This document shows, piece by piece, positions 15,457-55,686 of a DNA stretch of 64,000 nt (its first letter is position 1; every line of letters begins with the position of its first letter). The notes beneath the pieces are model-generated. The model was given only the letters and a program-made list of their open reading frames with translations, was not told where the DNA came from and ran no database searches. The translations under genes and the position numbers were made by a program. Source of the stretch: an uncultured Bdellovibrionales bacterium (lineage in GTDB: Bacteria > Bdellovibrionota > Bdellovibrionia > Bdellovibrionales > UBA1609); contig CAILEP010000016.1 in assembly GCA_903833275.1 (NCBI GenBank), positions 175,865 through 239,864 of the forward strand. Reading direction: 5' to 3'.

Positions 15457-15533
15457 TGGTGTCCCCGACATGAATCGAACATGTGACCTATCGTTTAGGA
15501 AACGATCGCTCTATCCAGCTGAGCTACGGGGAC
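15457..15533 (-). tRNA. tRNA-Arg (anticodon CCT), CCA encoded
   Basis: The minus strand reads GTCCCCG (acceptor), GCTC/GAGC (D stem), ATCGT-TTCCTAA-ACGAT (anticodon arm, anticodon CCT), variable AGGTC, ACATG-TTCGATT-CATGT (T arm), CGGGGAC, discriminator A and an encoded CCA. That gives 77 nt including CCA. It reads the AGG codon. It begins 11 bases after the pilR stop codon on the same strand, so it is either cotranscribed with the pil operon or has a promoter inside pilR. Confidence 0.95.
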
Positions 15534-53686: not shown

Positions 53687-54565
53687 TCAAAAACAGGTTT
53701 TGGCGGCGAAAGCAGTATGGTCCCCATATTGCAATTCGACCCAACGCTTGTTCATGACACGGTATAAGTCGTAGCGCGCACCTTTTTTAATGGTGCCCAC
53801 TTTAGCAGCGCCATCAGAGGCCTCTGCCGTCACGTCGCAATCAAATTTGGGTGTTCGCACTAATACTTTCGACGGCACGCTGCTGACTTTTCGCTTCTGC
53901 TGATCTCGTTCGGCCTGGGCCTTTGCCTTGAGGTCGCTTTCTTTATGCGCGGCCACCCTGAGTCTTTCGAGATTTTCATTTAGCAGCACATATTTTTTCT
54001 TAAGCTCGGCAATGTCAGCAATGTTCTGGGCGCGTTCTTTTTTGTCAGCCACGATTGAGCTTTCGAGTGTCTGCTGCTCTTTCGTCGACTGAGCCAAGAT
54101 ATTAAGTTGTGCATCTTTTTCGGCTTTTGAGGCTGCCACTTCGGCATTCATTTTAGTCAATTCATCGCGCTTGGCCTTAACTCTTTTATTAGTCGCCTCT
54201 ATTTTCTGAATGGCAATGGCCTTTTCGTTCTCATACTGTGCGCGCTCTTTTTGATTAGCTCTTATATTCGCATCAAGCTTGCCAATTTCTTTTTTGGCTT
54301 CGCCCTCGCGTGCCGAGGCTTCATTTTTCTTTTGATTGGCCTCAACTTTGGCCTTTTTAAGATTCGACTTTTCTTCTTTAGCCCGCTTTTTGGCATCAAT
54401 AGCTTCCTGGTGTGCGGCGTCGGATTCTGCCATAACCGAATCTACATCGGCCTCGACGTCATCGAGGTCGCCCCCGGCAAATGATCTGACCGAAATCGCA
54501 AGGCCCGCGACGAATAGAGTCATCACGGCAACTTCAAAGAACTTATTTTTGGGCTTCTCAAACAT
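53687..54565 (-). CDS. Membrane-anchored coiled-coil protein with SH3-like tail
   Basis: About 292 residues. One hydrophobic segment (FFEVAVMTLFVAGLAISVRSFAGG, signal anchor or cleavable signal) is followed by about 180 residues of nearly continuous, Lys/Glu/Ala-rich coiled coil (SDAAHQEAIDAKKRAKEEKSNLKKA). A C-terminal domain of about 60 residues resembles a bacterial SH3 (KVGTIKKGARYDLYRVMNKRWVELQYG) and holds two Cys (FDCD, KTCF). A peptidoglycan-facing structural or scaffold role is plausible. ATG 54565 (MFEKPKNK) is chosen; the track start at 54658 would add an unsupported polar leader and run into the divergent promoter region. Confidence 0.72.
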   Translation of the reverse strand: MFEKPKNKFFEVAVMTLFVAGLAISVRSFAGGDLDDVEADVDSVMAESDAAHQEAIDAKKRAKEEKSNLKKAKVEANQKKNEASAREGEAKKEIGKLDANIRANQKERAQYENEKAIAIQKIEATNKRVKAKRDELTKMNAEVAASKAEKDAQLNILAQSTKEQQTLESSIVADKKERAQNIADIAELKKKYVLLNENLERLRVAAHKESDLKAKAQAERDQQKRKVSSVPSKVLVRTPKFDCDVTAEASDGAAKVGTIKKGARYDLYRVMNKRWVELQYGDHTAFAAKTCF

Positions 54566-54748
54566 TGGCGTACTTCGTCCTCTCTGAGAAAGAAATGTCC
54601 ATAGCTCTACTTCGGCAGAATCATTGAGATAATGTATTTTTTTCGAGCTTATACCCAAAGTAGAACCTCTTTGACTCCTCCATTTGCCATTTGCTGGCTA
54701 GACCTTGGTCTTATCTCAAATATAACCCAGGCTTATGTCCTAAGACGT

Positions 54749-54765
54749 TTGGCACGGGTCTTGCT
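54749..54765 (+). promoter_or_regulatory. Sigma54 (-24/-12) promoter
   Basis: TTGGCACG-GGTC-TTGCT matches the sigma54 consensus YTGGCACG-N4-TTGCW at every conserved position, with GG at -24 (54751-54752) and GC at -12 (54763-54764). Transcription should start near 54776. The window encodes at least two sigma54 activators (PilR and the CHASE2-linked NtrC), but which one acts here is not shown. Confidence 0.85.
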
Positions 54766-54775
54766 CTAAGAGGTT

Positions 54776-54833
54776 GTTCCCCCCCTTGGCGGCCAGGTAC
54801 CCCCCCCCTTACTTTCCTGGTCGCTTTTTTTTT
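54776..54833 (+). ncRNA. Candidate C-rich sigma54-driven small RNA
   Basis: From the predicted start the RNA would be about 57 nt: GUU-C7-UUG as a single-stranded 5' end, then a 9-bp stem GCGGCCAGG/CCUGGUCGC (one G-U pair) enclosing an 18-nt loop that contains C9, then U9. Both C-runs are predicted unpaired. The whole unit, promoter plus terminator, occupies the gap between the coiled-coil gene and the amidase gene. The C-runs could pair with G-rich ribosome-binding sites or G tracts in mRNAs. Alternatively it is an attenuated leader of the amidase gene, which starts 25 bases after the T run. Confidence 0.6.
54789..54833 (+). terminator. Intrinsic terminator of the C-rich RNA
   Basis: A 9-bp GC-rich stem (54789-54797 with 54816-54824) is followed immediately by nine T residues (54825-54833). 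This is the strongest intrinsic terminator in the window. Confidence 0.8.
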
Positions 54834-54858: not shown

Positions 54859-55686
54859 ATGCCAAGAATTGACGGGCCAAAATATTATTTTATCCAATTT
54901 TTTCTAATTTGTTTTCTAATTTCAATTCAGCCGGCGGCCTTCGCCATGCGTATTGTTATTGACCCCGGCCATGGCGGCACCGATCGCGGGACTACACGCG
55001 GCGAAGTCACCGAGTCTGCGATCACCCTCAATGTCGCACGGGCCTTGCGCGATGAGATCGCAAAATCGGCCGATTTTACCGCTTTACTCACAAGAGACGA
55101 CGACTCTTACCTATCGCTTGAGCAGCGCGCCGAAATTGCCAACGAAAAAAGCGATGTCTTCATCAGCATTCACGTTAATTCTTCAGCCGACCCGAAAGCT
55201 CGCGGCAAAGAAATTTACTTCCAAAATCAGCTCGACGCAGACGAAGAATCGCTCTACTTGGCCAATTTAGAGAATGGTCACCCTCCGGGCGACACGGCGG
55301 CCACTGAAAAATCGTCGCCACACAAGATGCGCACCGCCCTCTCGGCCGATCTTAAAGGGTTGAACTCAGATCTGAAGGCTATTGTCGAAGATCTTGAGCG
55401 AAATCACCGGTTAAAAATGAGTGGGCTTCTCACCGAAGAGCTGCATCGCAACTGGGGCGGCGACCCTATTCGCCGCAAGCAGGCAATTCGGCAGGCCCCG
55501 TTTTTCGTAATAAGCAATGTCATTCGACCGGCGGCTTTGATCGAAATCGGCTTTCTAACCAACCCGGCCGAGGCACAAAAGCTGGTTAACCCCGACTACC
55601 AGAAAAAAATTGCGCGAGGTATTTACCAAGCACTCGTTAAATTCAAAGAAGTCGTAGACAATTCGACAGCGCAACACTTAAATTAG
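54859..55686 (+). CDS. N-acetylmuramoyl-L-alanine amidase (Amidase_3)
   Basis: 275 residues. The signal peptide (FFLICFLISIQPAAFA) is followed directly by the Amidase_3 domain: MRIVIDPGHGGTDRGTTRG (first zinc His), the Glu in GEVTESAITLNVA, FISIHVNSSADPKARGKEIYF (third zinc ligand) and PAALIEIGFLTNPAEAQKL (catalytic Glu). An insertion of about 50 residues (DEESLYLANLENG...KGLNSDLKAIVEDLE) lies where AmiB/C-type enzymes carry a regulatory helix. It cleaves the amide between MurNAc and the peptide stem in the periplasm. It precedes rph by 5 bases. Confidence 0.9.
   Translation: MPRIDGPKYYFIQFFLICFLISIQPAAFAMRIVIDPGHGGTDRGTTRGEVTESAITLNVARALRDEIAKSADFTALLTRDDDSYLSLEQRAEIANEKSDVFISIHVNSSADPKARGKEIYFQNQLDADEESLYLANLENGHPPGDTAATEKSSPHKMRTALSADLKGLNSDLKAIVEDLERNHRLKMSGLLTEELHRNWGGDPIRRKQAIRQAPFFVISNVIRPAALIEIGFLTNPAEAQKLVNPDYQKKIARGIYQALVKFKEVVDNSTAQHLN

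Follow-up and report, generated by a model that had tools for sequence, protein, structure and literature searches.

A dedicated small-RNA gene, predicted to encode an RNA of about 57 nt with two unpaired runs of C, is present with its own sigma54 promoter and terminator in most genomes of Bdellovibrionales (114 of 141), and is apparently undescribed, since no account of it was found in Rfam 15 or in the open-access literature that could be searched. The element (Table 1) was found in the window, that is, the stretch of 64,000 nucleotides that was analysed, which is part of the 3.08 Mb genome of an uncultured Bdellovibrionales bacterium, where it lies between a divergent coiled-coil gene and an amidase gene. 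An earlier note, made from the sequence alone, had described it as a -24/-12 promoter followed by a predicted C-rich RNA with a terminator stem and a T9 tract, and this observation is confirmed. The same note had proposed a stand-alone regulatory RNA that acts on Shine-Dalgarno or G-tract targets under NtrC-type control, a view that our analysis supports only in part, since the stand-alone nature and the sigma54 promoter hold up while the activator and the mode of action remain inferences.

Table 1. Coordinates in the window of the small-RNA gene, its parts and its neighbours.
Position	Strand	Feature	Basis
54749-54765	+	sigma54 promoter: TTGGCACG (54749-54756), GGTC, TTGCT (54761-54765); -24 GG 54751-54752, -12 GC 54763-54764	read directly; GG-N10-GC at near-constant spacing in 97 of 100 homologous loci; rpoN present in this genome
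54776-54833	+	predicted small RNA of about 57 nt (start inferred from the promoter, end from the T run)	covariance model hit at 230640-230697 of the contig, 72 bits, E 8e-14
54776-54787	+	unpaired 5' leader with C7 (54779-54785), candidate seed 1	predicted fold; leader run of 4-9 C in all 100 loci
54788-54825	+	GC-rich terminator stem-loop GGCGGCCAGG / CCTGGTCGCT: 9 bp of GCGGCCAGG (54789-54797) with CCTGGTCGC (54816-54824), plus a G-U pair 54788-54825; 18-nt loop	predicted fold; 99.2% of cells paired, 5 of 10 pairs with changes on both sides over 95 distinct sequences
54798-54815	+	C-rich loop TACCCCCCCCCTTACTTT with C9 (54800-54808), candidate seed 2	read directly and predicted fold; loop C-run of at least 4 in 97 of 100 loci
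54825-54833	+	T9 tract of the intrinsic terminator	read directly
54859-55686	+	neighbour: N-acetylmuramoyl-L-alanine amidase (Amidase_3), first gene of amidase-rph-rdgB; conserved neighbour, not part of the RNA	gene and family assignment; comparison of loci
53687-54568	-	neighbour: coiled-coil protein of unknown family with an apparent N-terminal signal segment and no Pfam match; recurrent neighbour across the order, not part of the RNA	gene and family assignment; comparison of loci

The predicted fold of the RNA agrees with the anatomy read from the letters (-17.2 kcal/mol, z -3.8), with both C-runs unpaired, and the transcript would be 55-58 nt long if it starts about 12 nt after the GC of the promoter. 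The exact string TTGGCACGN4TTGCT occurs twice in the genome (the second copy appears to lie inside coding sequence) and the reversed pattern never. That this is more than chance is settled by conservation. A DNA search of 60 relatives with 301 bases recovered, in about 27 of them, only the central 60-100 bases (promoter and/or RNA), with the same promoter, leader, stem and loop, while the flanks had diverged. A covariance model of the RNA alone then hit 114 of 141 genomes of the order (E down to 1e-14; 111 at E<=0.01), nearly always once per genome, and only 3 of 228 other genomes of the phylum, two of which (loci L131 and L136) are of the same class and have the full architecture including the promoter. 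In 100 loci examined in more detail, each of which gave one hit, GG-N10-GC sits upstream at near-constant spacing in 97, with all ten consensus positions in 57. Since the model contains no promoter column, this is a largely independent test that promoter and RNA are one gene, although the model was built from 26 loci first recognised with their promoters. Absence of the -24/-12 elements or of the stem in relatives would have counted against the proposal of the earlier note, and both proved to be conserved. The stem covaries (0.373 against 0.231 when shuffled).

The C-runs persist although their lengths drift and the letters around them change (as judged by simple pattern counts), and 47 of 100 loops hold CCUCC while 12 hold CCUCCUU, which resembles the anti-Shine-Dalgarno of the ribosome. 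In two divergent members (L321 in genome G039 and L028 in genome G042) an extra hairpin has appeared whose loop is again CGCCCCACG, and the bare C-run is therefore likely the selected feature. Genome G042 seems to hold two members of the family (L028 and L174), one with the extra C-loop hairpin and one next to a run of N. Among weak model hits in genomes that seemed to lack the RNA, two (L318 and L321) proved by their letters to be real divergent members, one (L322 in G023) has a C8-loop terminator without the promoter pattern and the rest look like chance. L322 and L127 (in G035), both of genus g19, retain C-run terminator loops but lack the sigma54 promoter pattern and the leader C-run, which might reflect decay or a change of control. 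Pattern matches outside Bdellovibrio in the genome contigs (L063, L065, L066, L069, L071, L072, L074 and L078) were taken as chance. A small-protein reading was rejected, since the ATG after the leader C-run is present in only 41 of 100 loci and is otherwise TTG, TTA, TTT, TAG, TGA and others.

INDEPENDENCE. In 74 of the 90 loci with an amidase match, the RNA is followed on the same strand by an amidase gene, usually amidase-rph-rdgB, but in the other 16, all of which appear to belong to genus Bdellovibrio, it points the other way, towards the coiled-coil gene. Elsewhere it has other neighbours (names read from the sequence, not by a family search), with a convergent clpB downstream in L143, an oligopeptide-binding protein gene in L022 and L142, and others in L160 and L162. 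A leader of one operon would not behave in this way.

The RNA is also present in the model strain B. bacteriovorus HD100 (the 3,782,950-base record used is HD100 or identical to it in layout, with a c-di-GMP riboswitch at the published place of merRNA; PMC3627812), where it lies at 2,620,002-2,620,057 on the minus strand. It is not among the published small RNAs of this strain that could be consulted, that is, merRNA, APsRNA1-7 and the bd0103-bd0108 sRNA, which are likewise intergenic but are all at other coordinates and 98 nt or longer (PMC3627812, PMC3818213). Karunker et al. did not list it in attack-phase RNA-seq (PMC3627812), though 57 nt may fall below library size, and these authors state that growth-phase RNAs could not be mapped.

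As for control, rpoN was found in 127 of 141 genomes and is so nearly universal that its co-occurrence with the RNA is uninformative. In HD100 the signature TGGCACN5TTGCT sits 24-80 nt upstream of flgF and secreted-protein genes, and promoters of the same form are found 24-100 nt before flgF, a MotA/TolQ/ExbB gene and secreted-protein genes. NtrC-type control is supported only in that sigma54 requires an enhancer-binding protein and that, in genus Bdellovibrio, a block of about 36 nt around TTGTCGTTTTCTGTCAAAAACCTCGACA is conserved some 45-80 nt upstream of the -24 element. This block is a candidate enhancer site but not evidently a shared one, since no other convincing copy was found in the 1.6 Mb of HD100 examined. 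An Hfq model (PF17209) found nothing in any of the 141 genomes while control genomes gave matches, which suggests that small-RNA biology in this order runs without Hfq and is as expected if strong G-C seeds do the work.

The search for targets yielded no conserved candidate. Predicted pairing at 1469 predicted HD100 starts only slightly exceeds controls (for the leader at <=-14 kcal/mol, 97 genes at starts, 64 upstream, 73 in coding sequence and 74 with the reversed leader). The strongest predicted leader target (-23.5 kcal/mol) is a gene for a 94-aa secreted protein at 1049012-1049055 (-) in HD100, which has its own sigma54-like promoter and a CCCC/GGGGGG 5' UTR. Two other top sites, a flagellin (562130) with CCCAAGGGGGGTTCTATG, which was the best-looking target and has a G6 site, and FlaG (570068; Pfam FlaG), drew attention to the flagellum, but the ribosome-binding site of the flagellin reads AAGGGGGG only in HD100 and two close sisters (most other Bdellovibrio have AGGAGG or similar, possibly a variable G-tract), while the FlaG site was not found in genome G071. 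A comparison of targets with G071 gave no convincing list, and the HD100 sigma54 regulon is not enriched for sites (p 0.23).

Comparison with known systems is instructive. The mycobacterial 6C RNA (RF01066; 6C/B11) also has two bare C-runs, no Hfq and broad conservation within a lineage, and B11 represses eccB4, whose 5' UTR has a G6 tract, with either of two C-rich loops (PMC10470900). However, 6C is actinobacterial and has two C-loop hairpins, while in the window and in most members folded there is one hairpin and the other C-run is a free 5' leader, and the 6C model gives HD100 only 20.6 bits (E 0.65) against a gathering score of 47 and no match up to E 10 in the window. RepG of Helicobacter pylori, a bacterium that is not known to have Hfq, shares a C/U-rich terminator loop, which in RepG binds a G-repeat (PMC8295292), but no sequence relation was seen and RepG is not known to be an order-wide sigma54 gene. 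Qrr (Vibrio) and GlmY/GlmZ (Enterobacteria) are small-RNA genes switched on by sigma54 and an enhancer-binding protein, to which a conserved -24/-12 promoter at proper distance corresponds here, but they involve Hfq, differ in structure and gave no Rfam match. The anti-SD-like CcsR/alpha-r15 and the S. aureus UCCC-motif RNAs share C-rich, CCUCC-type seeds, but lineage, structure and promoter differ and there is no Rfam match above threshold. The only gathering match to Rfam in the window is a tRNA gene at 15460-15533 (-).

The explanation we favour, with moderate confidence, is that sigma54 polymerase, switched on by an enhancer-binding protein yet to be identified, makes a 55-60 nt RNA whose hairpin both terminates and stabilises it, and whose two C-runs pair, without Hfq, with G-rich ribosome-binding sites or G-tracts of several mRNAs and block their translation. 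What comparison demonstrates is the conserved promoter, the short unit with its C-run leader, covarying stem, large C-rich loop and T tract, the single copy in nearly every genome that has it and the independence from neighbouring genes, while transcription by sigma54 and its activator, chaperone-free pairing and translational repression are inferred from anatomy and by analogy with 6C/B11 and RepG. A tie to the flagellum or the attack-phase programme is plausible but only correlative.

Other readings are less likely. The C-runs might bind a protein rather than mRNA, the RNA being a sponge or scaffold that titrates a single-stranded C-binding protein (KH or cold-shock type) when sigma54 is active, which would suit the conservation of C-run identity despite drifting lengths and flanking letters, the extra C-loops of variants and the lack of a conserved mRNA target, but no poly-C binding protein is known in this lineage and the known C-run bacterial sRNAs (6C/B11, RepG) act by base pairing (PMC10470900, PMC8295292), and this reading is unlikely. 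More doubtful still is a cis element, in which promoter and terminator would form an attenuated leader of amidase-rph-rdgB with the C-rich loop controlling termination, since its usual position just upstream of the amidase is offset by the inverted loci and differing downstream genes, and no alternative antiterminator pairing is predicted, the terminator fold being dominant. A strong terminator next to a chance promoter match can be all but dismissed, for although T9 terminators alone are common, promoter, leader C-run, loop C-run and spacing are co-conserved over the order.

A narrower version of the favoured reading, in which the RNA belongs to the sigma54 flagellar cascade and mainly targets flagellin, FlaG or other late flagellar mRNAs, is possible but improbable on present evidence. 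The RNA is missing in 11 of 15 genomes without flagellin against 16 of the 126 others (among good genomes, 6 of 9 against 7 of 94, Fisher p 8e-5, or 5 of 94 after two divergent members were recognised, p 2e-5). However, these statistics ignore phylogeny, and the flagellin-less genomes are all in one family (f1) and among the smallest, so that kinship and genome reduction are not excluded and this is a lead and no more. Of the four flagellin-less genomes that keep the RNA, G026 (L120) lacks a recognisable sigma54 promoter and G024 (L166) has lost the loop C-run, but in G019 (L024) the RNA is intact. The promoter of the same form before flgF and the strong predicted sites at flagellin and FlaG in HD100 are in favour, while the lack of conservation of these two sites is not.

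If a bolder view, which is speculative and rather unlikely, were true, this would be an order-wide core riboregulator of Bdellovibrio-type bacteria, a sigma54-switched and Hfq-free RNA whose two C-run seeds resemble the anti-Shine-Dalgarno of the ribosome and act as a broad translational brake in one phase of the predatory life cycle, lost when the flagellum is lost. The finding matters, since no order-wide small RNA of Bdellovibrio-type bacteria is known to have been described and no sRNA target is known to be established there, while this one is conserved, present in HD100 and comes with a promoter hypothesis (sigma54) and a seed hypothesis (C-runs) that make its mechanism testable. It also adds a further lineage without a detectable Hfq gene in which C-run RNAs occur, suggesting that strong G-C seeds may be a general substitute for an RNA chaperone.
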